Source: Patescibacteria group bacterium (lineage in GTDB: Bacteria > Patescibacteriota > Minisyncoccia > Moranbacterales > GWC2-37-73). From it: DNA of 64,000 bases. The position numbers were made by a program, and so were the translations under genes. The stretch lies in contig JAKLIP010000001.1 of assembly GCA_022709545.1 (NCBI GenBank), forward strand, positions 62,001 through 126,000, written 5' to 3'. The notes under the pieces were generated by a model. It worked only from the letters and a program-made list of their open reading frames with translations, was not told the DNA's origin and searched no databases. Shown one piece after another: positions 5,723 through 24,677 of the stretch; the first letter of the stretch is position 1, and the number at the start of each line of letters is the position of its first letter.

Positions 5723-5807
5723 TTCCAGCTTAGTTAAAAATAATAAAATAAATAGTTAAAAATATTCATTTCCAAACCAAAAGCGGTTTTGTTGTGAAAA
5801 ATTTTTC

Positions 5808-7517
5808 ATGAGTCAGCAGGACAAAATTATACAAAATATTGGGATTCAGCAGAAAAAAATAGGCTCCATGTCCTATAAGTCTGAAGCCCTTGTTAATATG
5901 GCAAAGAGCTTAAACATGCCTTATCTAGAAAGAATTCCAAGAATAGAAGATGATGTGATGAATATAATTTCAAAGGATGTATCTCTCCAGCATAAAATAA
6001 TAGCATTTGAAAGGGATAAGAAAAAAGTAAAAATAGGCATTGTTGAACCAACCAATATTAATGCGCTGAACATCTTGCGTTTTATCGCAGAAGAAAGAAA
6101 GCTCGAAATTGAATTATATCTCATTTCTCAGGAGATGTTTGACGATATGTTTGAACAATATTCAGGCGGAACAGAGGAAGCCATAAAGGAAGTTATGGAA
6201 ATATTGCAGAATGAAGATGATGTTGAAGACGAACTGGATAATAAAAAAGAAGACAAAGAAGACAAGGATAGCATTCAATTTGCTCCAGTGGCAAAACTTC
6301 TCAATGTCATAATAAAACATGCTATTGACGGTAAGGCGAGCGATATCCATATAGAACCTGTAACCAAAGAATATAGGGTAAGGTTCCGGGTTGATGGAGT
6401 CCTTTTTTCGTCATTGACAATCCCGAAGGGAGTTGGACGTGCAGTAGTTTCAAGAGTAAAAATACTTTCAAATCTTAAGATTGATGAAAAAAGAAAACCG
6501 CAAGATGGTCGCTTCAGTGTTAATGACGAAGGTCATTTGGTTGATTTTCGCGTTTCAACATTGCCTGTTGTCGATGGTGAAAAAGTAGTAATGCGTCTTT
6601 TGGACAACAAAAACAAGCTCATAGATTTTGAAGGCATGGGAATTATGGGCAAGGGGAAAGAAATCTTAATTAAAAACATAAAAGAGCCATATGGAATTAT
6701 TTTACTGACGGGACCGACTGGAAGCGGAAAATCAACAACTCTTTATGCTTGCCTGGGTGTTTTGAACAAGGAAGAAAGGAATATAATTACGCTTGAAGAT
6801 CCAGTTGAATATTCGATATCTGGTGTAAATCAAAGCCAAATAAATCCAGAAATTGGTTATACATTTGCCAGCGGCCTGAGATCCATATTGCGTCAAGATC
6901 CGAACATTATAATGGTAGGGGAAATTCGCGACAGTGAAACTGCTGAATTAAGCATACATGCCGCACTCACTGGCCATTTAGTGCTCTCAACATTGCACAC
7001 CAACAGTTCTATAGGTGCAATTCCAAGACTTGTCGATATGGGCATAGAACCATTTTTGCTGTCTTCTTCTATAAAAGTTGTTGCAGCACAAAGATTAGTT
7101 CGCAGAATTTGCCTTGATTGCAGACAGGAAATAAAGCTAAACAGTAAAATCGCTGAATATATAAACAGCCAAGTTGGAAATCTTCCCAAAGAAGAAATAG
7201 AAAAGTATGGAGTAGATTTGTCTAAAGGCGTTCATATCTATAAAGGAAAGGGATGCGAAAATTGTGACAACAGTGGATATAAAGGACGCATAGCTATTTT
7301 TGAGGCGATTGAAATAAATGATGACATAAAAGAAATAATTTCAGAAAAGGCTGGAACTGAGCAGGAAGTGCAGAAATATGCCGATGAGCATGGCATGATA
7401 AAGATAGAGCAGGATGGAGTGTTGAAAATTTTAAAAGGTTTGACGACCGTAGAAGAAGTGCAGCGAGTCACTGAAGGTAGCAAAAGTGTCGGCGGGGAAG
7501 TTGAAGACGATAAATAA
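5808..7517 (+). CDS. pilB: Type IV pilus extension ATPase PilB
   Basis: This hexameric secretion ATPase of the GspE/PilB family powers pilus extension. An N-terminal MshEN-like domain (about 30-130) is followed by an acidic linker, the Walker A motif GPTGSGKST (302-310), the Asp box, Walker B region (GEIRDSETAE), and the zinc-binding cysteines of the family (CLDC about 440 and CENC about 483). The length of 569 aa is normal. It sits between pilO and a CheY-like regulator in the same direction. The MshEN domain binds c-di-GMP in some PilB homologues; I cannot tell whether this one does. Confidence 0.95.
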   Translation: MSQQDKIIQNIGIQQKKIGSMSYKSEALVNMAKSLNMPYLERIPRIEDDVMNIISKDVSLQHKIIAFERDKKKVKIGIVEPTNINALNILRFIAEERKLEIELYLISQEMFDDMFEQYSGGTEEAIKEVMEILQNEDDVEDELDNKKEDKEDKDSIQFAPVAKLLNVIIKHAIDGKASDIHIEPVTKEYRVRFRVDGVLFSSLTIPKGVGRAVVSRVKILSNLKIDEKRKPQDGRFSVNDEGHLVDFRVSTLPVVDGEKVVMRLLDNKNKLIDFEGMGIMGKGKEILIKNIKEPYGIILLTGPTGSGKSTTLYACLGVLNKEERNIITLEDPVEYSISGVNQSQINPEIGYTFASGLRSILRQDPNIIMVGEIRDSETAELSIHAALTGHLVLSTLHTNSSIGAIPRLVDMGIEPFLLSSSIKVVAAQRLVRRICLDCRQEIKLNSKIAEYINSQVGNLPKEEIEKYGVDLSKGVHIYKGKGCENCDNSGYKGRIAIFEAIEINDDIKEIISEKAGTEQEVQKYADEHGMIKIEQDGVLKILKGLTTVEEVQRVTEGSKSVGGEVEDDK

Positions 7518-7586
7518 TATAAATTGAATCAAAAAATACGATTTTGGATAAAAAGCATAAAGAATAACTCTTAACCTTAAAATTTT

Positions 7587-7967
7587 ATGTCTGAAAAAAT
7601 AAAAAAAGTACTGCTTGTTGAAGACGATCCTTTTATCCGGGATATTTATAGTGTTAAATTTTCACAGGAAGGATTCGAGGTTTCAATAGCAGAAAATGGA
7701 TTGGAAGCCCTGAAGAAAATCGAGGAATCTGTTCCAGATGTGATTTTGCTGGATATAGTTATGCCTTATATGGATGGTATGGAAACCTTGAAAAATATAA
7801 GAGGTAAAAAGGAATGGAAGAAAATTCCCGTGGTAATGCTTACTAACATCTCTGAAAAAGAAAAAATAAGTGAAAGTGAAGATTTTGGAATTAATGATTA
7901 TCTTATAAAATCACATTTCACTCCCTCAGAAGTCGTACAAAAGGTAAGAAATTTGTTGAAAGGTTAA
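7587..7967 (+). CDS. CheY-like single-domain response regulator
   Basis: A stand-alone receiver domain of 126 aa with the acidic pair D13/D14, phospho-acceptor D56 (LLDIVMP), switch threonine in MLTN and lysine in YLIKSHF near residue 106. It has no output domain, so it should act by protein-protein contact like PilG/PilH or CheY. It lies between pilB and pilT, which suggests it modulates one of the two motors. No histidine kinase is present in the window. A short gap of 69 bp follows pilB. Confidence 0.9.
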   Translation: MSEKIKKVLLVEDDPFIRDIYSVKFSQEGFEVSIAENGLEALKKIEESVPDVILLDIVMPYMDGMETLKNIRGKKEWKKIPVVMLTNISEKEKISESEDFGINDYLIKSHFTPSEVVQKVRNLLKG

Positions 7968-7980
7968 TTTTTGCTATAAT
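7953..7980 (+). promoter_or_regulatory. Putative promoter of pilT-pilC
   Basis: TTGTTG (7953-7958) and a perfect TATAAT (7975-7980) with 16-nt spacing overlap the end of the response-regulator gene. This would let pilT and pilC be transcribed apart from pilB. Confidence 0.55.
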
Positions 7981-8027
7981 AAAGAAAATTAAGACTGAAA
8001 AAATATTTTTAAAAATAAAAACAAAAA

Positions 8028-9116
8028 ATGCCATTAATAACACATAGCGACCAAAGAATAAAAAATTTACTAAGATTAGTTGCTCAGCAGAATGCTTCCG
8101 ATCTCCACTTAGTTGTCGGCAGATATCCCACTCTTCGTTTGGATGGAAAACTGTATCCGATAACTCAGGAAAAAATTTTACAAGCAGAAGATACTCAGGC
8201 ACTTAGTGATGTTATTCTCAGTGAAGAAAATAAAAAAAAGCTTATTGCAGAAGGGCAGGTTGATTTTTCTTATAATTTTGAGGATAAAGCCCGTTTCAGA
8301 ACAAATGTTTTTTTCCAGCAGGGAAACATAAGTGTGGCCATGCGTATGATTTCAAGCCGTCTTAAGACGCTGGAAGAACTGAGTATTCCTCCCATACTTT
8401 ATGACTTCACACATAACACGCAAGGTTTGTTTATAGTGACTGGTCCGGTGGGTCATGGAAAATCAACTACGCTTTCGGCACTTGTTGATTTTATTAATCA
8501 TAACGAAGATAAAAATATAATAACTATTGAAGATCCGATAGAATATCTTTATGAACAGGATCGGTGCATTATAAATCAGCGGGAAGTGGGAAGAGATACT
8601 AAATCATTTTCCTCGGGATTGCGCAGTGTTTTTCGCGAAGATGCAAATGTAGTTCTTATTGGTGAACTTAGAGATTTGGACACTATCAGCACGGCTGTGA
8701 CTGCGGCTGAAACTGGGCATCTGATTCTTGCCACTTTGCATACAAATGATACATCCCAGACAGTCGACAGGTTGGTAGATGTTTTTCCGTCTCACCAGCA
8801 AAATCAAATCAGATCCCAGTTGGCAAGTGTTTTGATCGGGGTTGTCTCCCAAAGATTGCTGCCAAAAATCGGAGGTGGCAGAGTTCCTGCTTTGGAAATA
8901 ATGATCAACAATAATGCAGTAGCAAATCTAATACGTGAAAATAAGACATATCAGATAAAATCCGTGATTGAAACAAGCCTTAAAGATGGCATGGTGACTT
9001 TGGAAAATTCCTTGGCTGATTTGGTTCATCGGGGACTTGTGACCTTTGAAGATGCGTTGCAATATACCGAAAACAAAGAATATTTGAATATGTTAACAAA
9101 TAAAAAAAATAGATAA
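8028..9116 (+). CDS. pilT: Type IV pilus retraction ATPase PilT
   Basis: This hexameric ATPase depolymerises the pilus for twitching and DNA uptake. The Walker A motif reads GPVGHGKST (139-147), followed by the Asp box TIEDPIEYLY and a Walker B/His-box region (GELRDLDTISTAVTAAETGH, LATLHTND). It lacks PilB's zinc cysteines and N-terminal extension, as expected for PilT. The length of 362 aa is typical. The N-terminal QQNASDLHLVVGRYPTLRLDG is the classic PilT PAS-like region. Confidence 0.95.
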   Translation: MPLITHSDQRIKNLLRLVAQQNASDLHLVVGRYPTLRLDGKLYPITQEKILQAEDTQALSDVILSEENKKKLIAEGQVDFSYNFEDKARFRTNVFFQQGNISVAMRMISSRLKTLEELSIPPILYDFTHNTQGLFIVTGPVGHGKSTTLSALVDFINHNEDKNIITIEDPIEYLYEQDRCIINQREVGRDTKSFSSGLRSVFREDANVVLIGELRDLDTISTAVTAAETGHLILATLHTNDTSQTVDRLVDVFPSHQQNQIRSQLASVLIGVVSQRLLPKIGGGRVPALEIMINNNAVANLIRENKTYQIKSVIETSLKDGMVTLENSLADLVHRGLVTFEDALQYTENKEYLNMLTNKKNR

Positions 9117-9146: not shown

Positions 9147-10358
9147 ATGAAATTTTTATACCAAGCCAGAAATCTGTCAGGAGAAGTCCAGCAAGGAAAA
9201 ATAGAAGCCCTGAATAATGAAAAGGCGATAGCGATGCTTCAGGAAAAAGGATTATTGCCTCTCTCTATCGAGAAAGAAAAAGAAACTCCTGAAGTATTCA
9301 GGGAAGTTATGCGCATCTGGAACGGAGCCAGTGCCAGGGAAATTTCAGTTTTTTTCCGGCAGCTGGCGACTTTGATTGAAGCTAAGGTTACAATAGTTTC
9401 ATCGCTTAATGCCGTAAGGGAACAGACAAGCAATGCATACTTGAAGAGGATCATCGGAGAATTGGTGGATAATATAGAGGACGGATCACCGCTTTCAGAA
9501 GCTATGCAGAAACACCCGGATGTTTTTGAAACTCTGGCAGTCAGTATGGTCAAAGCAGGAGAACTTTCCGGAAATCTGCAACGCAGCATTTTGTTTCTAG
9601 CTGAAAATACGGAAAAAAATTATGAATTAAGTTCAAAAATAAGAAGCGCTATGTTCTATCCTATTTTCGTGCTTTCAGCGGCTCTGATAATCGGTTTTGG
9701 AACTTTTGCTTTTGTCTTGCCGAAGCTCACAGATGTTTTCAAAGATTTGAACGTCGATATACCTTGGTACACCAGCATGCTTATGGATGCCAGCGCTTTC
9801 ATTAATAGATACTGGTGGGTTACGATGTCGATTATAATATTCATAATATTATCAACGATTTATTATCTCAGGACTGAAGATGGCAAAAGAGAATGGGATT
9901 CATTCAAAATGAAACTTCCTGTCATTGGTCCGCTTTTCCAATATATTTACATAGCCAGATTTGCCGAAAATCTTTCGGTACTTATGATCGGAGGCATTCC
10001 GCTTGTCAGGGGCCTTGCAATTGTAAGCGAAGTTGTAAATAGCACTGTTTTTGAAAGCGTTATACTCAGAGCTGCGGATGAAGTAAAAACGGGCGGATCC
10101 ATGAGTGAAGTATTTTCACGCAGTTCTTCATGTTTTCCTCCTATTGTAGCTCAAATGATAAAGATTGGCGAAGACTCGGGAAAAATAGCCGAAGTGCTGA
10201 AAAATGTTTCCTTTTTCTACTCCAAGGAAGTGGATCGCATCACGCGCAATCTTTCTTCAATGCTTGAACCTATTCTCATTTCTATTCTTGGAGTCGGGGT
10301 TGGATTTTTGGTTTTTGCCATACTGGTGCCGATATACAACATAGCGGGATCCATATAA
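9147..10358 (+). CDS. pilC: Type IV pilus platform protein PilC
   Basis: PilC is the polytopic inner-membrane protein on which pilins assemble, driven by PilB and PilT. Two cytoplasmic GspF domains (about 65-190 and 270-395) each contain the FFRQLATLIEA-type signature (FFRQLATLIEAKV; FAENLSVLMIGGI). Membrane helices lie near 170-195, 220-245 and 375-400. The length of 403 aa is normal. It follows pilT by 30 bp and precedes the pilin genes. Confidence 0.95.
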   Translation: MKFLYQARNLSGEVQQGKIEALNNEKAIAMLQEKGLLPLSIEKEKETPEVFREVMRIWNGASAREISVFFRQLATLIEAKVTIVSSLNAVREQTSNAYLKRIIGELVDNIEDGSPLSEAMQKHPDVFETLAVSMVKAGELSGNLQRSILFLAENTEKNYELSSKIRSAMFYPIFVLSAALIIGFGTFAFVLPKLTDVFKDLNVDIPWYTSMLMDASAFINRYWWVTMSIIIFIILSTIYYLRTEDGKREWDSFKMKLPVIGPLFQYIYIARFAENLSVLMIGGIPLVRGLAIVSEVVNSTVFESVILRAADEVKTGGSMSEVFSRSSSCFPPIVAQMIKIGEDSGKIAEVLKNVSFFYSKEVDRITRNLSSMLEPILISILGVGVGFLVFAILVPIYNIAGSI

Positions 10359-10381: not shown

Positions 10382-10410
10382 TTTAAATTTAACAAATAAT
10401 GTGTTATTAT
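10382..10410 (+). promoter_or_regulatory. Putative promoter giving a near-leaderless pilin mRNA
   Basis: TTTAAA (10382-10387) and TATTAT (10405-10410) are 17 nt apart. The -10 element ends only 6 nt before the preferred ATG at 10417, so transcription would start at or next to the start codon. Confidence 0.4.
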
Positions 10411-10416
10411 AAACTT

Positions 10417-10821
10417 ATGATAAATCAAAAAAATAAATTTTCATCCGCGAAAGGTTTCACCCTGATTGAACTTCTGGTCGTTATGGCGATTATCGGAATA
10501 CTGGCTAGTGTTGTTATGGTCAGCACCAAAGGTGCAGTGGAAAAATCGAAAAAAGCATCGGCATTGACAAGTGCTGCCAGTGTCCTGCCGGAACTCGTCA
10601 TATGTGCTGATGATGGTGGCACCGCTTCTACTCCAGCAGAAGGAAGTACTATATGTCAAGGTGCAACTGGGCATAGCGTAGCATGGCCTGCCATAAATGC
10701 AAAAACAGGCTGGAATTACAATGGTTCATCAGGTGCAGTTGTGGGTGGAACTTATAGCTTTTTTTTGGAAAAGGATGGTAACACGATAACTTGCAGTATG
10801 GCTACGAATGATTGCGTGTAG
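10417..10821 (+). CDS. Type IV pilin 1 (prepilin)
   Basis: A type IV prepilin of 134 aa with leader MINQKNKFSSAKG and cleavage before FTLIELLVVMAIIGILASV, including the conserved Glu5. Beyond the helix is a small domain with cysteines near residues 69, 80 and in the C-terminal TCSMATNDCV, which could form the pilin disulfide loop. The in-frame ATG at 10399 is less likely because the -10 element overlaps the intervening codons. It is the first of three tandem pilins sharing the pattern SAL.T..S.LP....C, W and a final Cys pair. Confidence 0.9.
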   Translation: MINQKNKFSSAKGFTLIELLVVMAIIGILASVVMVSTKGAVEKSKKASALTSAASVLPELVICADDGGTASTPAEGSTICQGATGHSVAWPAINAKTGWNYNGSSGAVVGGTYSFFLEKDGNTITCSMATNDCV

Positions 10822-10871
10822 TAATTAAAATAAAAATTGGAAAAATTGGATATAACAAATAACGTTTTGTT

Positions 10872-10877
10872 TAGAAT
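10872..10877 (+). promoter_or_regulatory. Possible -10 element for pilin 2
   Basis: TAGAAT lies 29 nt before the folded leader that starts at 10901. No convincing -35 is seen at 16-18 nt. It would start a transcript of about 185 nt ahead of the pilin 2 start codon. Confidence 0.3.
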
Positions 10878-10900
10878 CAAAAATTAGTTGCAAAGTGGTT

Positions 10901-11049
10901 GTCCCGTAAAAATTCCGAGCAAGTCTGTTTTTAAAAAAGATAGCGCTCGGAAACACCTGTGGCTTTTACTGCAGGTGATGCAAAATTTCTGCAGAGAATT
11001 TTACGGGACGCTCAATTTTGTGGCAAAATCAGAGATTTTAACAAAATTG
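10901..11049 (+). promoter_or_regulatory. Highly structured 5' leader of pilin 2
   Basis: A closed multi-helix element: outer stem 10901-10914/10997-11009 (GTCCCGTAAAA..TT with AATTTTACGGGAC, one bulge), P2 CCGAGC (10915-10920)/GCTCGG (10945-10950) and P3 CACCTG (10954-10959)/CAGGTG (10972-10977). Two CTGCAG palindromes near 10970 and 10989 could pair with each other. A second long hairpin follows, CAATTTTGT (11013-11021)/ACAAAATTG (11041-11049) with inner AAAATC/GATTTT, ending 4 nt before the ribosome-binding site. No riboswitch family is recognised. It could be a regulatory or mRNA-stabilising leader. Confidence 0.6.
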
Positions 11050-11069
11050 GCGGAAGGAGGTGTGAAATT

Positions 11070-11420
11070 ATGAAAAAAATGAAAAAAGGTTTCACGTTGA
11101 TCGAATTGTTGATCGTTATTGCGATCATCGGTATTTTGGCCGGAGTTATTTTGGTAAGCACTTCAAGCGCTCGTCAAAAAGCTCAAACAGCTGCTGCTAA
11201 ACAGACGCTTAAAAGTACTATGCCATATTTAACAGAATGTAATTTGAATAACTATACTATAAGTGCTTATAACACAGCAAACCCAATTTGTACCGATGGA
11301 CCAAACTGGCCAGAAGTAGGTACTTATTGTACTGGCACAGCATACAACGCGGGTGTATTATCAACAACTTGCAATGGAACTACTATTACATGTACTGTTG
11401 ATACAGGGTCATGCACATAG
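11070..11420 (+). CDS. Type IV pilin 2, probable major pilin
   Basis: A prepilin of 116 aa with leader MKKMKKG and mature start FTLIELLIVIAIIGILAGVILVS. The start at 11070 is fixed by a strong ribosome-binding site (GGAAGGAGGTG) 6 nt upstream; an upstream in-frame ATG at 10959 lies inside the folded leader and is rejected. The head domain has several cysteines (TECN, PICT, TYCT, TTCN, ITCT, SCT). The strong site, long structured leader and 3' hairpin suggest high, controlled expression, so this is my candidate for the major pilin. Confidence 0.9.
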   Translation: MKKMKKGFTLIELLIVIAIIGILAGVILVSTSSARQKAQTAAAKQTLKSTMPYLTECNLNNYTISAYNTANPICTDGPNWPEVGTYCTGTAYNAGVLSTTCNGTTITCTVDTGSCT

Positions 11421-11440
11421 TTGAATACTGAACTATTTTT

Positions 11441-11465
11441 GCTTGCCAATAGTACATTGGCAAGC
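11441..11465 (+). terminator. Perfect 10-bp hairpin after pilin 2
   Basis: GCTTGCCAAT (11441-11450) and ATTGGCAAGC (11456-11465) surround a 5-nt loop. T-rich sequence follows but not immediately, so it may act as a 3' stability element or weak terminator between pilins 2 and 3. Confidence 0.5.
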
Positions 11466-11510
11466 TGTAAATTGTTTAATATTTTTTAAGAAATAAAAAA
11501 ATAAAAATAT

Positions 11511-11891
11511 ATGAAAAAATTTTTTTCAAGAAAAAAAGGTTTTACCCTCCTGGAACTCTTGATAGTTATGGCTGTTATAGTTATTTTAGTTGCTGCTATA
11601 ATAGCTGCTACTAATAGTTCTAGAGAAAAAAGTCATAAAGCTTCAGCTCTTCAGACAATGAGAAGCATATTGCCTTATGCAACTGACTGCTACATGAGAA
11701 GCCAGGCAATTCCTATAAATCCATCAGCAGGCAGTCCGGTTTGTAGTGGTGCTAATGCTAATTTTCCAGCTTTTGATACAAAAATAGGTTGGGGTTATAC
11801 TTCTGGAACAAGCTCCACGTACAAAGCATGGGATATTACAGATAATACAAAAACTATTACCTGCAATCCGGAGATTAGTAAATGTTTTTGA
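11511..11891 (+). CDS. Type IV pilin 3 (prepilin)
   Basis: A prepilin of 126 aa with leader MKKFFSRKKG and mature start FTLLELLIVMAVIVILVAAII, keeping Glu5. The head shares with pilins 1 and 2 the SALQTMRSILPYATDC segment, a central PVC, IGWGY (compare TGWNY in pilin 1) and a C-terminal ITCNPEISKCF with two cysteines. There is no clear ribosome-binding site. It could be an alternative or minor pilin. Confidence 0.88.
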   Translation: MKKFFSRKKGFTLLELLIVMAVIVILVAAIIAATNSSREKSHKASALQTMRSILPYATDCYMRSQAIPINPSAGSPVCSGANANFPAFDTKIGWGYTSGTSSTYKAWDITDNTKTITCNPEISKCF

Positions 11892-11979: not shown

Positions 11980-12777
11980 ATGGTCATTATTTTTTTTATA
12001 TTCGGTCTCATTATTGGCAGTTTTCTGAATGCTGTCGTCTATCGCCTGAATGCGGTGGAGTCTCTTTTGGAGCGTTCGCATTGTCCAAAATGCAAAAAGA
12101 AAATCAGGTGGTTTGATAACATTCCTCTTCTGAGTTTTCTTCTTTTGTCGGCCAAGTGCCGCGACTGCGGTGAAAAAATTTCCTGGCAATATCCGATTCT
12201 GGAACTAGCAACCGGGGTCATTTTCGCCCTTGTCGGCAATTATTTTTTCTACTCCTACAATTCTTCAAGCTGGCTCCTTTCCGGCTATTATTTGGTTATT
12301 TTTTCCCTGCTGGTTATCATTTTTGTTTATGATCTGAAATATATGGAAATACCCCTACTGATTCTCTGGATAGGCCTTATCATATCAGCATTGTATTTCT
12401 TGTCTGTTGATTGGAAGAGTTTTTATATTGCTGGATCAATACTCGATCTCAAAACCATTTCTGGTATAGTTGGAGGGTTAATAGCATTTTTATTTTTTTT
12501 CGGTCTCGCTTCTTATTCCAAAGAAACATGGATGGGCTATGGCGATGCATATGTTGGTCTTTTGGCCGGATTTATTGTTGGTTGGCCGAACATTATTTGG
12601 GCATTGATGTTTTCCTTTACGATCGGCGCGCTTACAAGCATAGCTCTTATAATTCTGGGCAGGAAAACAATAAAAAGCCAGGTGCCTTTTGCACCATTCT
12701 TGATTTCAGGAATCTTTTTGGTTATTTTTCTCCCTCAAATTTTTCCGTCTCTTAAAGAATTTTTTGTATATTTTTAA
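11980..12777 (+). CDS. pilD: Prepilin peptidase (type IV leader peptidase)
   Basis: An inner-membrane aspartyl protease that cleaves prepilin leaders and methylates the new N-terminus. The N-terminal methylase-type domain has the four zinc cysteines (CPKCKKK, CRDCGEK, about 32-67). The catalytic aspartates are seen in VYDLKYMEIP (about 115-125) and GYGDAYVGLL (about 186-195). About seven membrane helices and 265 aa fit the family. It separates the three pilins from the five glycine-rich pseudopilins, all of which should be its substrates. Confidence 0.95.
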   Translation: MVIIFFIFGLIIGSFLNAVVYRLNAVESLLERSHCPKCKKKIRWFDNIPLLSFLLLSAKCRDCGEKISWQYPILELATGVIFALVGNYFFYSYNSSSWLLSGYYLVIFSLLVIIFVYDLKYMEIPLLILWIGLIISALYFLSVDWKSFYIAGSILDLKTISGIVGGLIAFLFFFGLASYSKETWMGYGDAYVGLLAGFIVGWPNIIWALMFSFTIGALTSIALIILGRKTIKSQVPFAPFLISGIFLVIFLPQIFPSLKEFFVYF

Positions 12778-12783
12778 TGAAAT

Positions 12784-15684
12784 ATGTTTAAAGAAGACTG
12801 TCATTCATCACCCCAATCCAAACTTCCCTCAGGGAATTTCAAAAAAAACTCCCTTCTTTCATATAAGAGGGGTTTTTCTGTTATTGAAATAGTGATAGCC
12901 ATGGCTCTTTTGATAATTATGACTGCAGTTCTGTTTGTGAACCAAACAAGCAACAAATCACAAAAAGAAGTTGAAGTCGCCGCCAGGCAAATAGCCGCCC
13001 AACTTAGATTGTTGCAGAACGATTCTATTAACGGAAAATATATTGACGGCCAGGTATATAAATTTACCTTTAAGGCTGAAAAAGGAAAGACGGCCTATAA
13101 TTTGGAATATGAGTATAATCCTAGTGAAGGAAATGATCCCAAAATAGAACTAGGATTAGAATTAAACTCAGCCAAAAAAAATGTGATTTTCAAGGATGAT
13201 GTGGAAGTTTCTTTCAGTCTTTCATCCCGCGGCAAAACAGATCCAGGAAGTACTGCTCCTCCGATAACACTCACAGCTAAAAATGACACAAACAAAAGAG
13301 CCTATGTCTGCTATATGCCTGACACCGGATTGATATTTGACGGCACAGATCCGACCTGCAATTACACCGTTGCAGTTGATCCCGGGACAAATCCAAGCAA
13401 TTGTCCTGCAAGCGATCCTTGTCAGGTATCCACCTGCGGTAGTGACCAATGCCGCAACGGAGTTTGTGTATATGATGGTAGCAAAGATTGCTGCGTCCAG
13501 GCTGTAACAGCTACTGGCCAAGTGGAAATAACTGAAAAAGACGGTCGTGAAATTTATACCTTTACCGGTGATGGAGAGATCAATGTGAGTTGTTCTCCAG
13601 TGCAAGTGGGATATCTGGTTGTCGGTGGTGGTGGAGGAGGAGGAACTGGTCCGGCATGCAGTGGCGGAGGCGCCGGTGGTTTTCTGACTGGCACTACAGA
13701 ACTTCCAGCAGGTTCAACAAGCATCACTGTTGGAGATGGAGGATTGGCAGGAGTAGGTGTTGGATATCATCCAGGCAATAAAGGAGAAAACAGCTCTGTT
13801 GGTTCTATAATAATTGCAGAAGGTGGCGGTTATGGCGTATGTGCTGGAAATAATGGAGGAAGCGGAGGAAGCGGAGGAGGCGGAGGCATATTAGGTCGTC
13901 TTGGTGGCACTGGTACTCAAGGAAATAATGGCGGTAATGGTTGCACTTGTGGTGGACAGGAAAGCAATGGAGGCGGAGGAGGCGGAGCGGGAGAGGTTGG
14001 AGATATTGGTAGAGCTTATGATGCTGCTGATGGTGGTGATGGCTTACCCTCTTTTATCAGAGGTCAAGAAGAATGGTATGCGGGCGGAGGCGCAGGACAT
14101 TATATGAACGATGATTTGACTTTAGTCCCCGGCCAGGGTGGAAAAGGTGGTGGTGGCAATGATTCAAATGTCAGACATGGCTATCCTCTTAATCATCCAC
14201 AAGGATGGCCAAATACAGGTGGTGGAGGAGCCGGTACTTATAGTGGTGGTGGTGATGGAGGTTCTGGGATCGTAATAATTTCAGTTGGACCTCTTGTTTG
14301 CCCGGCAATAGATGATACATGCAAAGGAAAATTTGTTTATGACAGTAATGGGACTATTTGCGGATTTGGCACGAAGACGGATGGGGAGTGTTGTACTTCA
14401 CTTGTCGTTAAAAATCAGCCAATTAAAATAACTGGAATAACCCTGAGTAATCCTGCTGGGAATCCTGGAACTTATGATTTGGATTTAACTGGTCGATCTG
14501 GCAATTTATGGGGTAATTCTTCTATAGCAACTAATGGATCTATATATAAAACTACTGGTACTGGTTGGAATTTCTATTTTTATAATCCTTATTTTATAAA
14601 CGGAGACCCAGGTGCTGATCTGTTAGGTGATCCTAATGGCCTAAATGCTCCTGGAGGAGCATTTAGGTTGGAAACTGATAAAATAACATACGGAATGTTA
14701 TATAAAGATTACGGTACAGGTTACTGGAATGGTGACTTTAAATTCAATCTTGATAATGTAGGTTTAAGTACATGGTATGACCCTGGCTCTAGTATAGGTA
14801 AAAATGAAGTAGTTTTTAGCATGTCTAATAAGGTAGGACCTGTAAGAAATTATTCATATCCAGGATATGAGCCAGGAGAGAAAATTACTGTAAGTAGCGC
14901 ATCTCCTTGTGTAATTACTCTAGCTCAGAGTGGAGCAAATCCAATTGCAATAGGTATGCCTATTTATTTGCATACAACCGGAGCATTACCTGCAGGTTTA
15001 TCAGTAGATACTCCTTATTATGTAATACCAGAAGGTTTCACTGGTACATCTTTTGAAATATCTGCTACTCCAGGTGGTCCTGCTATAAATACGACTGGAA
15101 CACAGAGTGGAAATCATAGTTTTACTATAGCTCCTGATACCCAAGAATCAGATTTATTTGGCTTAACTTGGTACCAGAGCAAGTTACGTATGTATGTAGG
15201 AGGGGCATTAGTCGATTCTATTCAATTAGAAAGGGGAAGCCATTCAAATCCTGGGTGGAATTGGACAAATGAGGGAACTCGCTATTGGCTGACAATCACT
15301 AGAACTGAAGGTGCTCCATCAAAGTTTAGAGTTGATATATATTCGGATGAGAATAGAACTACTCGTATATCTACAACATCTGCCTTGGGTACCGCAGGAT
15401 ACATGACTGCTAATTTGCCATCAAATATAGATTATAGATATATATATTTATGGGCATCTAATTATGATTGGGGATTTAGAGCTGCTTCCTACCATTCATT
15501 CGGAGGTGCTTCAGATAATAGTATGGCAATACTATCTTGGGGAGGAGGTACTACTGTTGATGTAACTAAAGATGGAACATATACTCTTGATGATGGTTCA
15601 GGAAATAAAATAGACGCCGCTGTTAATTACGCAGGATTACCAGGAAATAATCAAACGGATAGTATAACAGTTGAATGCCAATAG
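12784..15684 (+). CDS. Glycine-rich pseudopilin A1, chimeric (966 aa)
   Basis: A pseudopilin with an unusually long leader: the pilin motif is G30 followed by FSVIEIVIAMALLIIMTA with Glu at mature position 5. The next part resembles GspH/FimT-like pseudopilins, then a cysteine-rich linker (about 190-235). Residues about 275-503 are glycine-rich runs of the phage tail-adhesin/polyglycine-II kind, ending GGSGIVIISV. A second cysteine-rich piece (GFGTKTDGECC) and a C-terminal half of about 420 residues follow, resembling protein B2 at both ends and containing a phage-tail-like module at about 700-783. Anchoring in or on the pilus and an adhesive role are inferred. Confidence 0.8.
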   Translation: MFKEDCHSSPQSKLPSGNFKKNSLLSYKRGFSVIEIVIAMALLIIMTAVLFVNQTSNKSQKEVEVAARQIAAQLRLLQNDSINGKYIDGQVYKFTFKAEKGKTAYNLEYEYNPSEGNDPKIELGLELNSAKKNVIFKDDVEVSFSLSSRGKTDPGSTAPPITLTAKNDTNKRAYVCYMPDTGLIFDGTDPTCNYTVAVDPGTNPSNCPASDPCQVSTCGSDQCRNGVCVYDGSKDCCVQAVTATGQVEITEKDGREIYTFTGDGEINVSCSPVQVGYLVVGGGGGGGTGPACSGGGAGGFLTGTTELPAGSTSITVGDGGLAGVGVGYHPGNKGENSSVGSIIIAEGGGYGVCAGNNGGSGGSGGGGGILGRLGGTGTQGNNGGNGCTCGGQESNGGGGGGAGEVGDIGRAYDAADGGDGLPSFIRGQEEWYAGGGAGHYMNDDLTLVPGQGGKGGGGNDSNVRHGYPLNHPQGWPNTGGGGAGTYSGGGDGGSGIVIISVGPLVCPAIDDTCKGKFVYDSNGTICGFGTKTDGECCTSLVVKNQPIKITGITLSNPAGNPGTYDLDLTGRSGNLWGNSSIATNGSIYKTTGTGWNFYFYNPYFINGDPGADLLGDPNGLNAPGGAFRLETDKITYGMLYKDYGTGYWNGDFKFNLDNVGLSTWYDPGSSIGKNEVVFSMSNKVGPVRNYSYPGYEPGEKITVSSASPCVITLAQSGANPIAIGMPIYLHTTGALPAGLSVDTPYYVIPEGFTGTSFEISATPGGPAINTTGTQSGNHSFTIAPDTQESDLFGLTWYQSKLRMYVGGALVDSIQLERGSHSNPGWNWTNEGTRYWLTITRTEGAPSKFRVDIYSDENRTTRISTTSALGTAGYMTANLPSNIDYRYIYLWASNYDWGFRAASYHSFGGASDNSMAILSWGGGTTVDVTKDGTYTLDDGSGNKIDAAVNYAGLPGNNQTDSITVECQ
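12801..13533 (+). repeat. Long direct repeat, copy 1 (A-class front end)
   Basis: I see no difference between 12801-13533 and 18743-19475 (offset 5942). Similarity with a few mismatches continues to about 13720. It encodes the pilin helix, pseudopilin domain and cysteine-rich linker of A1. Confidence 0.85.
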
Positions 15685-15742
15685 GGTTGTTGCACCACCA
15701 ATCTCCACAATTCCGACATTAAGATATTAAATTTAAACAAGG
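15685..15742. other. Short gap between A1 and B1
   Basis: No gene is present. The last 14 bases before B1 (from about 15729) match the sequence before B2, where the same bases form the end of the A2 gene. This suggests A1 once ended like A2. Confidence 0.5.
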
Positions 15743-16397
15743 ATGAATTTAATTCAAATTCCAAAACAGAAAAAAAAACAAAAAGGATTCTCATTGATAG
15801 AACTGCTGATATCTTTTGCCATACTCTCTTTGGGCATAATGGCGGTTTTCATCCTGATGTCCAAGAATGTAGAATATTCCCGATTTTCAAAAGATCAGAT
15901 TCTAGCTTCTCAGTTAGCGCAGGAAGCCGTTGAACTGCTGAGGAACATCAAAGACAATGACACCGAATTTAATGATACAGTTGAAGCCGGTGAATACATA
16001 ATCGATAAAAATAAATTTGAAATCAACACTGATCCGGATATTTTCAAGTTGTATTTGAAATATGAAGAAGGCAATAAATTCTATGTCCATGAGAAAGATG
16101 ATTCAGAGCCAACAAAATTTTTCAGAAGAGTTGATTTGGCAGTCAAGAATGATACAGATGGAAAGAAAATAATCGAAGAAAGAATTATGGTTTCGTGGAA
16201 TGACAAAGGTTTACCATCTGATCCAGCCGATTGTACCCTGGCCAACAAATGCCTATCAGTTGGTTCCATTGCACCCGACACAAATATAGTTTGTACCTGT
16301 ACGGGTGTAGACTTAGTCTGTCAGGGTGAGCCTGTCTACTATGATAACTGCGAGGGTCAATGCGGTGTAGGTACGAAGACGAATGGGGAATGCTGTG
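15729..16397 (+). repeat. Long direct repeat, copy 1 (B-class front end)
   Basis: Matches 20329-20997 (offset 4600) at roughly 95 percent by eye, with substitutions scattered along the length and no indels noticed. The match stops abruptly after the GECC codons. Confidence 0.85.
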
Positions 16398-17242
16398 TGC
16401 CATCAGGCGGGGAAGTATATTATACAAATTCTTCAGGCCTTAGTCCTAATCCATCTGAACCATATACCGACGGTTATGTAGTACATAAAATTACTGCTAT
16501 TGGTGATTCAACAATTAACCTATGTGGTGGTGGCTCCGTTGATATTCTTGTTGTTGGGGGAGGAGCCGGAGGAAAAGGTATTTTTGATGGTGGTGTTGGT
16601 GCTGGTGGATTTGTGGAAAAATATGGTTTTGATATCGATCCTGGAAAATATGAAGTTGTTGTGGGTGATGGAGGGTGTGGTGCAGGAAACTGTCATGCGA
16701 GTAACAATCCAGAAAATGGAAAGGATAGTATTTTTGCCAAAGACACTTCTTATGAAATAAAGGCTTTGGGTGGCGGCGTGGGTATAGGTGGATCTGGAGG
16801 AGGAGGCGCTACTAATTTACCGGGATTTGAAGGAACACCTGGGCAGGGAAATTCTGGCGGTTTTGGTTCAATGTGTGGCATATATTGGGCTCAAGGTGGT
16901 GGTGGAGGAGCAGGCGAAAATGGGCATAATGGTGCCACTGATTGCAGTAATTTCAGTGACGGTGCAGGAAATGGTGGTAATGGAAAAATGAGTACTATTT
17001 CAGGCGAGGAGAAATGGTATGCTGGTGGAGGTGCAGGAGGTTGTACACATGCTTATTGTAAAGTGATTGGTGGTAAGGGTGGTGGTGGAGATACAGTTGG
17101 TGCTTATAACGCAGCTGGTGCATGGGGAGAAGAGGGAGAAGATGGAACCGGTGGTGGTGCAGGCGGAGCTACTTTAAACCGGATTCCACATCCCGACGGC
17201 GGCTCCGGAATCGTGATAGTCAGATATAAATATGAAGAATAA
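15743..17242 (+). CDS. Glycine-rich pseudopilin B1 (499 aa)
   Basis: A PilV/GspI-like pseudopilin: leader MNLIQIPKQKKKQKG, mature FSLIELLISFAILSLGIMAV, with Glu5. A short domain follows with the AQEAVELLRNIKDND motif typical of PilV. A cysteine-rich linker (about 160-220: TLANKC, CTCTG, CGVGTKTNGECC) precedes a glycine-rich block (about 265-497) that ends SGIVIVRYKYEE. The block carries the motif EKWYAGGGAGG also seen in the paralogues. Function is inferred as an extracellular or pilus-tip adhesin. Its first 218 residues are closely related to B2. Confidence 0.8.
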   Translation: MNLIQIPKQKKKQKGFSLIELLISFAILSLGIMAVFILMSKNVEYSRFSKDQILASQLAQEAVELLRNIKDNDTEFNDTVEAGEYIIDKNKFEINTDPDIFKLYLKYEEGNKFYVHEKDDSEPTKFFRRVDLAVKNDTDGKKIIEERIMVSWNDKGLPSDPADCTLANKCLSVGSIAPDTNIVCTCTGVDLVCQGEPVYYDNCEGQCGVGTKTNGECCVPSGGEVYYTNSSGLSPNPSEPYTDGYVVHKITAIGDSTINLCGGGSVDILVVGGGAGGKGIFDGGVGAGGFVEKYGFDIDPGKYEVVVGDGGCGAGNCHASNNPENGKDSIFAKDTSYEIKALGGGVGIGGSGGGGATNLPGFEGTPGQGNSGGFGSMCGIYWAQGGGGGAGENGHNGATDCSNFSDGAGNGGNGKMSTISGEEKWYAGGGAGGCTHAYCKVIGGKGGGGDTVGAYNAAGAWGEEGEDGTGGGAGGATLNRIPHPDGGSGIVIVRYKYEE

Positions 17243-17247
17243 AATTT

Positions 17248-18678
17248 ATGCGGATTAAAAAATTTTTTCAAAAACAAAAAGGATTTACTTTGGTTGAAAT
17301 GCTGATTTCTGTTTTCCTTTTTTCTTTAGTTGTAATTATGCTGATGGGAAGTTTCTCAAGTTTTTTCAGCAGCTACATCAATTCCAAGAGAAATCAAAAT
17401 GACATCGAAAATGCCCAATATGTCATGGGTACAATGGTAAAAACAATCAGAACTTCCAGAATCATAGGAGATATAGGAGATATTACAGGCTTCCCTCTGA
17501 ATATTTATGATTTTTCGCAATTGAAGTGCATTCAATATGACTATGATTCAGTAAGTAAAAATATAATGTATGGTGAGGGACTTCCAGCAGATATAAATGC
17601 CCCGGATCCTGAAAGCTGTAATTTTGAAGACATACGTGACAACAACATGAATCTTTTGACTTATGACGGCAATATAGCTGAAGCTTCTATTTCTGCTGTT
17701 CCTTCGAGAGGATTAAAATATGGCAAGGTTACTATATTTTTTAGTATTCAGAGTAAAGGTGCAACATCTCCTGTTCCTATACAGATGAGCACTTCCTTGA
17801 GATCAAGAGCGAATTGTATAGAAGGCGGAAAATTAAGCTTTGTAGATGCTAGTGGAAATCCTATTGAGAAACCAATTTCCGGAAGCAGTTATGCTATAAA
17901 TACTTTCACTGAAGTCGGTGAAAGCTGGCCAATGGTTAATTGTAGCGGTGTTGATTTTGAATATCTGGTCGTCGGTGGAGGTGGAGGAGGAGGATATGGC
18001 GGAGGTGGAGGAGGAGGAGCAGGAGGATTATTGACTGGCACAAAAAAACTGCCAACAGGTTATATATTAGTTAAAGTTGGCAATGGAGGAGAGGGTGGAA
18101 ATGAGGATAGAGCAAATGGAGCGAATGGAGAAGACAGCCTTCTTGATACTATAGTTGCTTATGGTGGTGGAGGAGGCGGTGGAGTAAATAGTGCGGGCTC
18201 TGACGGAGGAAGCGGAGGCGGTGCCGGTTGCAATAGCACAAGTCCTGGGGAAGTTTATGAAGGATATGAATCACAAGGCAATAATGGAGGAGAGGGAGGA
18301 TCTAGTGATCCTGGAGTTACCGGCGGAGGCGGTGGCGGGGCAGAAGAAGCCGGTAATGATGGAGATGCAGAAGATAGAGGTTTTGGCGGGGATGGAATAC
18401 TTTCTAAAATATCCGGTTATGAAATTACTTATGCTGGTGGCGGTGGCGGAGCAGATTGCACAGAAAGTGATGACATTGCGGAGGGTGGAGAAGGTGGTGG
18501 CGGAGATGGTCAAAATAATCCAGGTGGTTCCGGAGGTAATAATCCAGAACCCGGAATGCCCAATACTGGTGGCGGCGGAGGCGGAGCTGCGGATCAGGGC
18601 GGAGAAAAAGTGCCAGGAGCTACCGGCGGTTCAGGAATTGTTATGATAAAATATCCTTATTTTGAATATGAAGAATAA
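17248..18678 (+). CDS. Glycine-rich pseudopilin C (476 aa)
   Basis: A PilW/GspJ-like pseudopilin: leader MRIKKFFQKQKG, mature FTLVEMLISVFLFSLVVIMLM with Glu5, then a soluble domain with the DIENAQYVMGTMVKTIRTSR helix usual in this class. It lacks the cysteine-rich linker of A and B. Residues about 239-472 are glycine-rich, beginning FEYLVVGGGGGGG and ending TGGSGIVMIKYPYFEYEE. It is single-copy, between the A1-B1 and A2-B2 pairs, with a 5-bp gap after B1, so it is probably co-translated with B1. Confidence 0.8.
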   Translation: MRIKKFFQKQKGFTLVEMLISVFLFSLVVIMLMGSFSSFFSSYINSKRNQNDIENAQYVMGTMVKTIRTSRIIGDIGDITGFPLNIYDFSQLKCIQYDYDSVSKNIMYGEGLPADINAPDPESCNFEDIRDNNMNLLTYDGNIAEASISAVPSRGLKYGKVTIFFSIQSKGATSPVPIQMSTSLRSRANCIEGGKLSFVDASGNPIEKPISGSSYAINTFTEVGESWPMVNCSGVDFEYLVVGGGGGGGYGGGGGGGAGGLLTGTKKLPTGYILVKVGNGGEGGNEDRANGANGEDSLLDTIVAYGGGGGGGVNSAGSDGGSGGGAGCNSTSPGEVYEGYESQGNNGGEGGSSDPGVTGGGGGGAEEAGNDGDAEDRGFGGDGILSKISGYEITYAGGGGGADCTESDDIAEGGEGGGGDGQNNPGGSGGNNPEPGMPNTGGGGGGAADQGGEKVPGATGGSGIVMIKYPYFEYEE

Positions 18679-18716
18679 ATAAAAGCTAACGAATACAAAT
18701 AATAAAATTAATATAA

Positions 18717-20336
18717 ATGTCTAAATTTCTGCAAACTCAAGTTCATTCATCACCCCAATCCAAACTTCCCTCAGGGAATTTCAAAAAAAACTCCCTTCTT
18801 TCATATAAGAGGGGTTTTTCTGTTATTGAAATAGTGATAGCCATGGCTCTTTTGATAATTATGACTGCAGTTCTGTTTGTGAACCAAACAAGCAACAAAT
18901 CACAAAAAGAAGTTGAAGTCGCCGCCAGGCAAATAGCCGCCCAACTTAGATTGTTGCAGAACGATTCTATTAACGGAAAATATATTGACGGCCAGGTATA
19001 TAAATTTACCTTTAAGGCTGAAAAAGGAAAGACGGCCTATAATTTGGAATATGAGTATAATCCTAGTGAAGGAAATGATCCCAAAATAGAACTAGGATTA
19101 GAATTAAACTCAGCCAAAAAAAATGTGATTTTCAAGGATGATGTGGAAGTTTCTTTCAGTCTTTCATCCCGCGGCAAAACAGATCCAGGAAGTACTGCTC
19201 CTCCGATAACACTCACAGCTAAAAATGACACAAACAAAAGAGCCTATGTCTGCTATATGCCTGACACCGGATTGATATTTGACGGCACAGATCCGACCTG
19301 CAATTACACCGTTGCAGTTGATCCCGGGACAAATCCAAGCAATTGTCCTGCAAGCGATCCTTGTCAGGTATCCACCTGCGGTAGTGACCAATGCCGCAAC
19401 GGAGTTTGTGTATATGATGGTAGCAAAGATTGCTGCGTCCAGGCTGTAACAGCTACTGGCCAAGTGGAAATAACTAAAAAAGACGGTCGTGAAATTTATA
19501 CTTTTACTGGTGACGGAGAGATCAATGTGAGTTGTTCTCCAGTGCAAGTCGGTTATCTGGTTGTCGGTGGTGGCGGAGGCGGGGGATCTGAACATGGCGG
19601 CGGAGGAGGAGGCGCCGGTGGTTTTCTGACTGGCACTACAGAACTTCCAGCAGGTTCAACAAGTATCATTGTTGGTAAAGGAGGGAACGGTGGCGGAGGC
19701 TGGTATGATCCAGGTAAAAATGGAGGCGATTCGTCTATTGGTAATATTATAATTTCTAAAGGAGGCGGCGGTGGCGGGCATGGATCTCCAACGGCCAATA
19801 CTCCTTCAGATTTGACTGGATATAACGGTGGTTCTGGCGGAGGTGGAGGTGGACAAGCATGGGGTGGTGATAGTTCTCCTGAAGGCAAGGGAATATCAGG
19901 GCAGGGTCATGACGGTGCTGTTGGAAGTGATTGGCAACATCATATATTTGGAGGTGGTGGAGGAGGAGCATATGAAAAAGGATATTATGGAAGCGGTGGC
20001 ACTGATTCTTGGCATGATCCATGTAATGATTGTGGAGACTATGCTGGTGCTACTGGTGGCAATGGAGGAAGTGGATCTCCATCTTCAATCAGCGGTGCAG
20101 AGAAATGGTATGCTGCTGGAGGTGGAGGTGGAGGTTATGAGAGCGGTGGAATAGGTGGAAAAGGAGGTGGTGGAAATGGAGGGAGTAACTCTACAACAAC
20201 TATTGAACCAACTGCAGGGCAAGAAAACACTGGTTCTGGTGGAGGTGGAAGTGGTGTTACTATACCATATGAAATTAGAGATTCTTATGGAGCTGGCGCT
20301 AATGGCGGTTCCGGAATCGTGATAATTAAAATTTAA
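18717..20336 (+). CDS. Glycine-rich pseudopilin A2 (539 aa)
   Basis: A paralogue of A1. After nine different residues (MSKFLQTQV) it is identical to A1 for about 244 residues, covering leader, pilin helix, GspH-like domain and cysteine-rich linker. The glycine-rich block (about 278-539) diverges from A1 soon after GGFLTGTTELPAGSTSI and is the end of the protein (GGSGIVIIKI). The C-terminal half of A1 is absent. The antisense ORF over this block is proline-rich and a shadow. Followed by B2 after 6 bp. Confidence 0.8.
   Translation: MSKFLQTQVHSSPQSKLPSGNFKKNSLLSYKRGFSVIEIVIAMALLIIMTAVLFVNQTSNKSQKEVEVAARQIAAQLRLLQNDSINGKYIDGQVYKFTFKAEKGKTAYNLEYEYNPSEGNDPKIELGLELNSAKKNVIFKDDVEVSFSLSSRGKTDPGSTAPPITLTAKNDTNKRAYVCYMPDTGLIFDGTDPTCNYTVAVDPGTNPSNCPASDPCQVSTCGSDQCRNGVCVYDGSKDCCVQAVTATGQVEITKKDGREIYTFTGDGEINVSCSPVQVGYLVVGGGGGGGSEHGGGGGGAGGFLTGTTELPAGSTSIIVGKGGNGGGGWYDPGKNGGDSSIGNIIISKGGGGGGHGSPTANTPSDLTGYNGGSGGGGGGQAWGGDSSPEGKGISGQGHDGAVGSDWQHHIFGGGGGGAYEKGYYGSGGTDSWHDPCNDCGDYAGATGGNGGSGSPSSISGAEKWYAAGGGGGGYESGGIGGKGGGGNGGSNSTTTIEPTAGQENTGSGGGGSGVTIPYEIRDSYGAGANGGSGIVIIKI
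18743..19475 (+). repeat. Long direct repeat, copy 2 (A-class front end)
   Basis: Second copy of 12801-13533. The sharp left edge lies inside the leader codons of both genes (after Val9 in A2, after Cys6 in A1), which marks a recombination joint. Confidence 0.85.
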
Positions 20337-20997
20337 ACAAGGATGAATTTAATTCAAATTCTAAAACAGAAAAAAAAACAAAAAGGATTCTCATTGATAG
20401 AACTGCTGATATCTTTTGCCATACTCTCTTTGGGAATAATGGCGGTTTTCATCCTGATGTCCAAAAATGTAGAATATTCCCGATTTTCAAAAGATCAGAT
20501 TCTAGCTTCTCAGTTAGCGCAGGAAGGCATTGAACTGCTGAGAAATCTCAAAGACAACGACACTGAATTTAATGATACAGTTGAAGCCGGTGAATACATA
20601 ATCGATAAAAATAAATTTGAAATTAACACCGATCCGGATATTTTCAAGTTGTATTTGAAATATGAAGAAGGCAATAAATTCTATGTCCATGAAAAAGATA
20701 ATTCAGAACCTTCAAAATTTTTCAGAAAAGTTGATTTGGCGGTCAAGAATGATACGGACGGAAAGAAAATAATCGAAGAAAGAATTATGGTTTCATGGAA
20801 TGACAAAGGTTTGCCATCCGATCCAGCCGATTGTACCCTGGCCAACAAATGCCTATCAGTTGGTTCCATTGCACCCGACACAAATATAGTTTGTACCTGT
20901 ACGGGCGCAGACTTAGTCTGTCAGGGCGATCCTGTCTACTACGATAACTGCGAGGGTCAGTGCGGTGTAGGTACGAAGACGAATGGGGAATGCTGTG
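20329..20997 (+). repeat. Long direct repeat, copy 2 (B-class front end)
   Basis: Second copy of 15729-16397, with more substitutions than the A pair. This suggests the A copies were homogenised or duplicated more recently. Confidence 0.85.
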
Positions 20998-22220
20998 CTT
21001 CACTTGTCGTTAAAAATCAGCCGGTTAATATAACTGGGGTAACTTTGGCAAATGCAACTGGGATTGCAGTCATCAATGATTTAATTTTTAAACCCAATCT
21101 TGTCGCCACCGGCGGTAATATAGTCTATACGGATAAGGATGGTTTAAGACCTACTCCTGCTCCCACTTCTGAAACTGTATATGTGGTTCATAAGTTTGAT
21201 GACAAAAATGTTGTAAATTTGGCCAGCGGGGCGTGCAGTATAACTTTTGAAAAGCCCATGGATAATGTAGAGCTTTTATTAGTTGGTGGTGGTGGCTATG
21301 GAGATTTGCAAGCTGGTGCTGCTGGTGGTTTTAGGCTTTTGAATAAGTCAGTAACTGCAAGAACTTATAATATGATAGTTGGCGCTGGAGGTGCCAACAT
21401 TATGTTTGCCGTTCCTTCTGACCAAGTCTATTATAATAACAGAAATACAATTTGGGATACTGGAGGTTCTGATCAAGAAGTAGCTACTGGCGGAGGCGGT
21501 GGTGGAAGTTATTCTTCTGTCAATGGTGGATCTGGATCAGGTGGATATGTAGTTCAATGGAACAATGGTCCTGAATATGCTTCACCAGGACTTGGTAACA
21601 CTCCGGCTACTGCACCTTCACAAGGAAACAATGGGGGGGCAGCTACTACTATTTATCCCAATGGTAGAGAGTGGGTAGCATTTGGTGGTGGCGGAGGCGG
21701 AGCCGGCAGTGCCGGATACCAGCCTTTTGTAGGTACAGATGGAAATTATCATGGCGGGCAAGGAGGAGACGGAATATCTTCTTCTATCAGTGGTGTTCCT
21801 ACGATTTATGCTGCTGGCGGAGGCGGAGGTTCTGGAGATTATAATGGTAATTTTAGTAATTTTAGAGGTGGAGAAGGCGGAAGCGGTGGAATTGGAGGTA
21901 AAGGTCACTCTTGGGGGTATCCGATTACAACCGAAGAAGCAAGTGGAAAACCTTGGACTGGTTCTGGCGGTGGTGGAATTGATTATGGTTTTTCATGGGG
22001 TTACGACAGATTTGGTGGTTGCGGAGTTATTATTGTCAGATATCCTTATTCCCAAGCTCTTCCTACTTTAACCTGGGGGACAGGAAATGATGAAACAATT
22101 AATACTAGTGGAACATATACACTCACAGATTCGTCAGGAAATAAAATAGATGCCACTGTTAATTATTTAGGATTACCAAAAACTGATCAGACAGATAGTA
22201 TAACGGTTGAATGTCAATAA
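20343..22220 (+). CDS. Glycine-rich pseudopilin B2 (625 aa)
   Basis: A paralogue of B1 with the same leader and PilV-like front end and cysteine-rich linker to about residue 218. It then has an extra module (SLVVKNQPVNITG, about 220-265) that is also in A1, followed by a glycine-rich block (about 308-575) and a C-terminal segment of about 50 residues (SGNKIDATVNYLGLP, ending TDSITVECQ) that A1 shares. A terminator follows the stop, so B2 closes the pseudopilin unit. Confidence 0.8.
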   Translation: MNLIQILKQKKKQKGFSLIELLISFAILSLGIMAVFILMSKNVEYSRFSKDQILASQLAQEGIELLRNLKDNDTEFNDTVEAGEYIIDKNKFEINTDPDIFKLYLKYEEGNKFYVHEKDNSEPSKFFRKVDLAVKNDTDGKKIIEERIMVSWNDKGLPSDPADCTLANKCLSVGSIAPDTNIVCTCTGADLVCQGDPVYYDNCEGQCGVGTKTNGECCASLVVKNQPVNITGVTLANATGIAVINDLIFKPNLVATGGNIVYTDKDGLRPTPAPTSETVYVVHKFDDKNVVNLASGACSITFEKPMDNVELLLVGGGGYGDLQAGAAGGFRLLNKSVTARTYNMIVGAGGANIMFAVPSDQVYYNNRNTIWDTGGSDQEVATGGGGGGSYSSVNGGSGSGGYVVQWNNGPEYASPGLGNTPATAPSQGNNGGAATTIYPNGREWVAFGGGGGGAGSAGYQPFVGTDGNYHGGQGGDGISSSISGVPTIYAAGGGGGSGDYNGNFSNFRGGEGGSGGIGGKGHSWGYPITTEEASGKPWTGSGGGGIDYGFSWGYDRFGGCGVIIVRYPYSQALPTLTWGTGNDETINTSGTYTLTDSSGNKIDATVNYLGLPKTDQTDSITVECQ

Positions 22221-22577: not shown

Positions 22578-24677
<2,100 letters not shown>

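Follow-up and report, generated by a model that had tools for sequence, protein, structure and literature searches.

Type IV pilins fused to functional modules form an established class, the modular type IV pilins, according to a survey of such architectures (PMC8179133). Its examples include PilB and PilC of Streptococcus sanguinis, in which a pilin module is followed by a C-terminal folded module and which are thought to be adhesins displayed at the pilus tip (PMC8179133). In Nanosynbacter lyticus TM7x, the modular pilin PilX2 is required for normal binding to the host (PMC12206443). The phage protein gp24 of Pam3 consists of a TNF-like base, a glycine-rich lattice or conserved stem and, at the distal end, a hypervariable tip as the presumed receptor-binding part (PMC9608196), and in gp38 of Salmonella phage S16 layered glycine helices extend from a beta-helix (6F45; PMC6851490). 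Host recognition in Patescibacteria is poorly understood, and of the few players tested so far one is the type IV pilus. We describe here a locus of five minor pilins with glycine-rich blocks, found in a stretch of 64,000 nucleotides (the window), which provides specific candidate recognition proteins with variable loops and would tie phage host-recognition domains to pilus tips.

Organization of the pilus operon

The window belongs to a Patescibacterium genome of 1.02 Mb, the LigA of which is 64-65% identical to sequences from Ca. Moranbacteria/Moraniibacteriota and 69% identical to that of a bacterium bin. The organism with the A1-B2 cluster is tiny and probably episymbiotic, its association with a host being assumed by analogy to its relatives. 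The gene order pilD-A1-B1-C-A2-B2-ligA follows directly on a set of pilus assembly genes:

3131-9116, + strand: pilM, pilN, pilO, pilB, a response regulator and a pilT-type ATPase (Pfam PilM_2, PilN, PilO, T2SSE (two), Response_reg)
9147-10358, + strand: PilC-like platform protein, inferred from sequence and operon position rather than from a family scan
10399-11891, + strand: three short prepilins (126-153 aa), each with N_methyl above cut-off and probably a major or other pilin
11980-12777, + strand: prepilin peptidase PilD (A24_N_bact, PF06750; Peptidase_A24, PF01478)
12784-15684, + strand: A1 (966 aa), FimT/GspH-class minor pilin with Cys-rich linker, glycine-rich block, second Cys-rich module and 461-aa tail
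12801-13533, + strand: stretch of A1 (733 nt) 100% identical to A2 at 18743-19475
13600-14283, + strand: glycine-rich block of A1 (PF21722 Gly_rich_2, E 5.7e-19)
14791-15135, + strand: module within the A1 tail resembling phage tail proteins (best E 2e-14, identities of 40-50% with phage tail/fibre proteins)
15743-17242, + strand: B1 (499 aa), PilV-class minor pilin with Cys-rich module and glycine-rich block
16505-17230, + strand: glycine-rich block of B1 (PF21722, E 4.3e-15)
17248-18678, + strand: C (476 aa), PilW-class minor pilin, block joined at the end point of plain PilW orthologues
17953-18654, + strand: glycine-rich block of C (PF21722, E 4.1e-24)
18717-20336, + strand: A2 (539 aa), second copy of the FimT class, bearing a separate glycine-rich block
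19542-20330, + strand: glycine-rich block of A2 (PF21722, E 6e-13)
20343-22220, + strand: B2 (625 aa), second PilV-class copy with Cys-rich module, block and C-terminal cap
21225-22043, + strand: glycine-rich block of B2 (PF21722, E 7.5e-9)
22590-24677, + strand: ligA, by LigA homology; in relatives this gene likewise bounds the minor-pilin cluster downstream

The first-pass annotation had placed a prepilin peptidase next to A1 and a prepilin start followed by a glycine-rich block in each of the five proteins, and both statements were borne out. Gly_rich_2 was found above its curated cut-off in all five (36-86 bits, cut-off 24.3), as one domain each spanning 228-273 residues. In hmmscan, N_methyl (PF07963) was above cut-off in B1, C and B2, while A1 and A2 were borderline, with 17 bits in hmmscan (cut-off 21.2) and 22.6 bits in the genome search; their prepilin motif reads KRGFSVIE, with Gly-1 and Glu+5. 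The proposed classes of the front ends, FimT/GspH for A, PilV for B and PilW for C, were retained on grounds of differing kind. The A fronts match the GspH model TIGR01708 (E 1e-5) and the B fronts the PilV model TIGR02523 (E 2e-10), in both cases below cut-off; A was assigned to FimT through its position and the weak GspH match, not through an orthology search of its own, and C to PilW through orthology and position, not through an NCBIfam score.

A1 shares its C-terminal cap with B2. The last 461 residues of A1 gave no Pfam match, and as their structure, predicted without an alignment, reached a pLDDT of 36.5, a lectin-like tail (best phmmer E 0.22) remains a guess. This extra tail and the duplication of A1/A2 and B1/B2 with diverged blocks were absent from the first-pass annotation.

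Fold of the glycine-rich block

An AlphaFold model of the C block (17860-18675), calculated from an alignment of 32 block sequences, reached a pLDDT of 88.8 and a pTM of 0.89, so that this block is predicted to be folded rather than disordered, in agreement with the earlier expectation, and its strand pattern resembles a beta-sandwich. Full-length alignments that contained many free blocks proved to be misaligned, and the folding did without them. The best match to a solved structure in Foldseek was the Pam3 fibre (7YPX; E 1.5e-6, probability 1.00, TM 0.47-0.51, rmsd 7.3 Å), followed by the Bxb1 tail tip (E 4e-5) and then by ALK/LTK at E 0.007 and weaker. Among viral models there were 239 matches at E<=0.001, with TM values up to 0.83 and many of them named 'Glycine-rich domain-containing protein'. 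The kinship to phage fibres that had been suggested from the sequence is thus supported by Pam3 gp24 and the Bxb1 tail tip, but not in its S16-like part, as S16 gp38 (6F45) was not among the best 50 of 60 Foldseek matches at E<=10.

In a sequence search of the PDB, the block profile retrieved the Pam3 fibre alone and without significance (E 0.22), and the C block had no match among translated phage sequences searched with the low-complexity filter on, as is to be expected from such filtering. In the block alignment, 54 of 272 columns contain at least 80% glycine, with variable segments and indels between them. This alternation would fit phage-type domains, but glycine-rich sequences may show it for structural reasons alone.

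Origin and distribution of the fusions

PilV and PilW fronts were present in all 19 family genomes searched, while an initial contig scan with the B front as query had confirmed no relative. The neighbourhoods retrieved from relatives have the order pilD-fimT-pilV-pilW-ligA, with ligA after pilW wherever the contig extends that far, and with one plain pilin each, mostly of 170-220 aa. Exceptions in size are G007, with a FimT of 352 aa and a PilW of 291 aa with a Cys-rich tail, and G008, with a PilW-like ORF of 259 aa; the ORF listing lacked some cluster members in G011, G005, G001 and G008, and contigs end in G013 and G018. In the same-family neighbourhoods examined, no glycine-rich block was found on any minor pilin of the pilD-ligA interval. 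Aligned with plain PilW, C contains the complete pilin module from end to end, and its block begins at the PilW end. The plain relatives and the position of this junction therefore identify the blocks as additions to the C-termini of three minor pilins that are specific to this lineage, and by sequence comparison it is in the window genome only, within the family compared, that FimT, PilV and PilW have gained them. The search for the same fusion in other genomes that the first-pass annotation had proposed yielded no second genome with fused FimT, PilV or PilW among 131 of the order (1/131, here only), but did retrieve a PilX fusion in G016 and G018.

PilX orthologues exist throughout the family. 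The PilX of the window genome is a plain pilin of 164 aa, encoded beside a ruvA-like gene; in G016, where the PilX gene also follows a ruvA-like gene, the protein combines PilX_N (weak), Laminin_G_3 and Gly_rich_2, and the same three domains recur in G018. The PilX proteins of other relatives carry LamG, FISUMP, kelch, LVIVD or TSP1 modules. Modular PilX is therefore common in the family, and the window genome has modules on FimT, PilV and PilW instead, an apparent shift that is a correlation across few genomes. The presence of modules on PilX in relatives and on FimT, PilV and PilW here may serve as a natural experiment on how tips gain or move adhesive modules.

Beyond these pilins, PF21722 was detected in 30/380 genomes of the phylum and in 11/131 of the order. 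Most Gly_rich_2 proteins are large, with an apparent Sec signal at the start, and many also contain FG-GAP, LamG and similar repeats. The number of such giant secreted carriers means that the blocks are not pilus-specific: the domain does occur on pilins, as had been assumed, but is not restricted to them, most copies in the phylum being located on large secreted proteins. Outside the family, a prepilin fusion in G256 joins N_methyl to five blocks in 2627 aa, and Gly_rich_2 proteins of five f42 genomes have in common a hydrophobic, putatively pilin-like start. These f42 N-termini ('GFALPTVLIAS') look like PilX by eye, yet scored E 0.0015-0.1 against the family PilX profile, within the range of the window's own FimT, PilV and PilW fronts, and were therefore not counted as PilX. 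A further glycine-rich stretch, in a 3370-aa protein of the window genome, matches PF12810 (E 1e-13).

Duplication and mosaic structure

Of 655 nt compared between the fronts of B1 and B2, 30 are different (95.4% DNA identity), and the A fronts are more alike than this, given the exact repeat of 733 nt. The blocks have diverged much further. A1 and A2 diverge at about 94 of the 225 residues aligned (about 58% identity), with many silent changes at identical residues, and B1 and B2 at about 171 of 274. From this silent divergence, the blocks are older than the common state of the fronts, and together with the closer resemblance of the A fronts this points to recombination, either gene conversion of the fronts or exchange of the blocks. 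We infer that block exchange or front homogenisation could be a means of altering specificity; the identity of the A fronts could be exaggerated by a collapsed assembly repeat. A tree of the blocks was poorly resolved, with A1 and A2 strongly joined, C, B1, A1 and A2 weakly grouped and B2 on a very long branch. Diversification of the blocks by a DGR was considered and rejected: no DGR reverse transcriptase was found in the genome, where the sole RVT_1 match lies on another contig and is best to DRT defence classes (UG19).

Functional interpretation

The pilin modules, their orthology, the lineage-specific grafting, the predicted fold, the A-B duplication and the mosaic of young fronts and diverged blocks were all computed, and the reading that we favour, with a probability of roughly 0.62, is that the five proteins are modular minor pilins of the pilus encoded in the same operon and that their blocks form a multivalent tip adhesin for a host cell or surface. 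PilD would process each FimT-, PilV- or PilW-class pilin module, which would enter the pilus via its N-terminal helix and carry a C-terminal binding domain of the phage-fibre type, with a beta-sandwich base, stacked glycine-rich loops and variable loop tips. Sets of FimT, PilV, PilW and PilX normally form the tip complex that initiates the pilus, and the blocks are therefore most likely displayed together at the tip, where they may recognise a host cell or surface. The placement of the five pilins at the tip would follow from the usual role of their classes, and receptor binding and adhesion by the blocks from analogy to their fold relatives. Several points count against a tip adhesin: many giant Sec-secreted proteins bear such blocks too, no second genome of the 131 in the order had the FimT, PilV or PilW fusion, the two copies each of FimT and PilV would need to alternate in or share a single tip position, and the fold match to Pam3 is moderate by its TM and rmsd values. 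With several pilins bearing blocks, such a tip might attach to other cells or surfaces by several modes simultaneously. We put forward more tentatively a polyvalent tip in which most minor pilins of the complex bear phage-type receptor-binding domains, the duplicated genes being exchangeable cassettes whose fronts gene conversion keeps identical and whose blocks are swapped or diversified, altering which host or surface is recognised.

The blocks might instead be structural, acting as bulky spacers or as elements of a surface or biofilm matrix that thicken or protect the pilus or the cell surface and bind no receptor, comparable to other large surface proteins rich in glycine that these bacteria have. 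That the majority of copies across the phylum are found on secreted proteins of very large size, with FG-GAP and LamG repeats and perhaps acting as general surface coats, speaks for such a role, but we judge it rather unlikely, as conserved glycine motifs with variable loops and phage fibres as the nearest solved folds fit recognition better, and as on PilX the block occurs together with LamG, a domain of lectin type. FimT and minor pilins also participate in DNA uptake in other bacteria, and since the fronts weakly match GspH and ComG models as well, the five proteins could be pseudopilins of a secretion or DNA-uptake filament, with blocks that handle substrate or DNA rather than attach. The combination of PilM, PilN and PilO with two ATPases, of which one is PilT-like from its position, is however the layout of a pilus, and the resemblance of the blocks to phage host-recognition domains makes such a filament quite improbable.

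A partial assembly artefact could account for some of the arrangement, if two strain variants of one A-B pair had been joined in one contig with the A front collapsed. The exact repeat of 733 nt does resemble a collapsed node, and contamination of the bin is estimated at 9.6%. Nevertheless, A1 and A2 have different sequences upstream of the repeat, and the one before A2 links it to C without involving any exact repeat; the B fronts are separate copies by virtue of their 30 differing sites. C, moreover, has a block although it is not duplicated. The fusions are independent of the duplication, and we consider an artefact very improbable.

Comparison with known systems

The statement in the first-pass annotation that such fusions are undescribed holds for this domain, as no description of pilins with Gly_rich_2 was found in a literature search of limited coverage, but not for pilins with modules in general, which are known (PMC8179133, PMC12206443). 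Gly_rich_2 is absent among the domains named in the architectures section of the survey on modular pilins (PMC8179133). With that class, A1-B2 share the prepilin signal and pilin helix (N_methyl with an adjoining PilD; A1 and A2 borderline) as well as an additional folded C-terminal domain that is not specific to type IV pili (PF21722 in 5/5; C modelled with confidence). Unlike in S. sanguinis PilB and PilC, the module here is of the phage-fibre type, and three classes of minor pilin in a single cluster carry it, duplicated copies included.

The ALK/LTK glycine-rich domain (PF12810; 7MZY), part of an animal cytokine receptor, is a weak fold match (E 0.007, TM 0.2-0.3). The blocks resemble S16 gp38 in their conserved glycine motifs and variable segments, but the strand pattern of the C model is like a beta-sandwich, whereas the layered glycine helices of gp38 extend from a beta-helix, and from the Foldseek ranking the gp38 scaffold differs, as far as tested. 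Closest among solved folds is the Pam3 fibre with its TNF-like base, stacked glycine-rich loops and variable tip; gp24 is a phage trimer with a helical shaft of its own and the folding chaperone gp25. Like A1-B2, PilX1 and PilX2 of TM7x are patescibacterial minor pilins with modules at the C-terminus, those of TM7x being binding modules (PMC12206443). In TM7x these modules, a jelly-roll-like domain and a beta-propeller, are located on PilX, whereas in the window genome it is FimT, PilV and PilW that carry the modules and PilX that is plain.

Shared modules and related loci

At window 14299-15684 and 21981-22220, the FimT/GspH-class minor pilin A1 and the PilV-class B2 have a C-terminal cap in common, and a Cys-rich module is shared by A1, B2 and the other PilV-class protein, B1, so that shuffling seems to extend to further parts. 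The following features were recorded in addition:

L098:5709-13592, genome G256 (outside the window's family): prepilin of 2627 aa with five Gly_rich_2 blocks
L034:186-10298, contig C1 of the window's genome, some 16 kb upstream of the window: secreted protein of 3370 aa
L035:2419-11503, contig C10 of the window's genome: putative second type IV pilus-like cluster
L217:3971-6343, contig C13 of the window's genome: reverse transcriptase of 790 aa
Window 34656-37972: 23S and 5S rRNA

The secreted protein contains FG-GAP, LamG and Gly_rich_2 domains and an ALK_LTK_GRD match (E 1e-13). The genes on contig C10, pilB-/pilC-like and pilM/N/O-like, with pilins of 455 and 212 aa and a pilin-like protein of 495 aa, are judged a second pilus-like cluster from sequence and gene order only.

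Although 23S and 5S rRNA were detected, 16S rRNA gave no match within the 64-kb window. As the 23S rRNA spans 3156 nt versus 2925 model positions, it probably contains insertions.

For the reverse transcriptase, the nearest class is that of the DRT UG19 defence enzymes.
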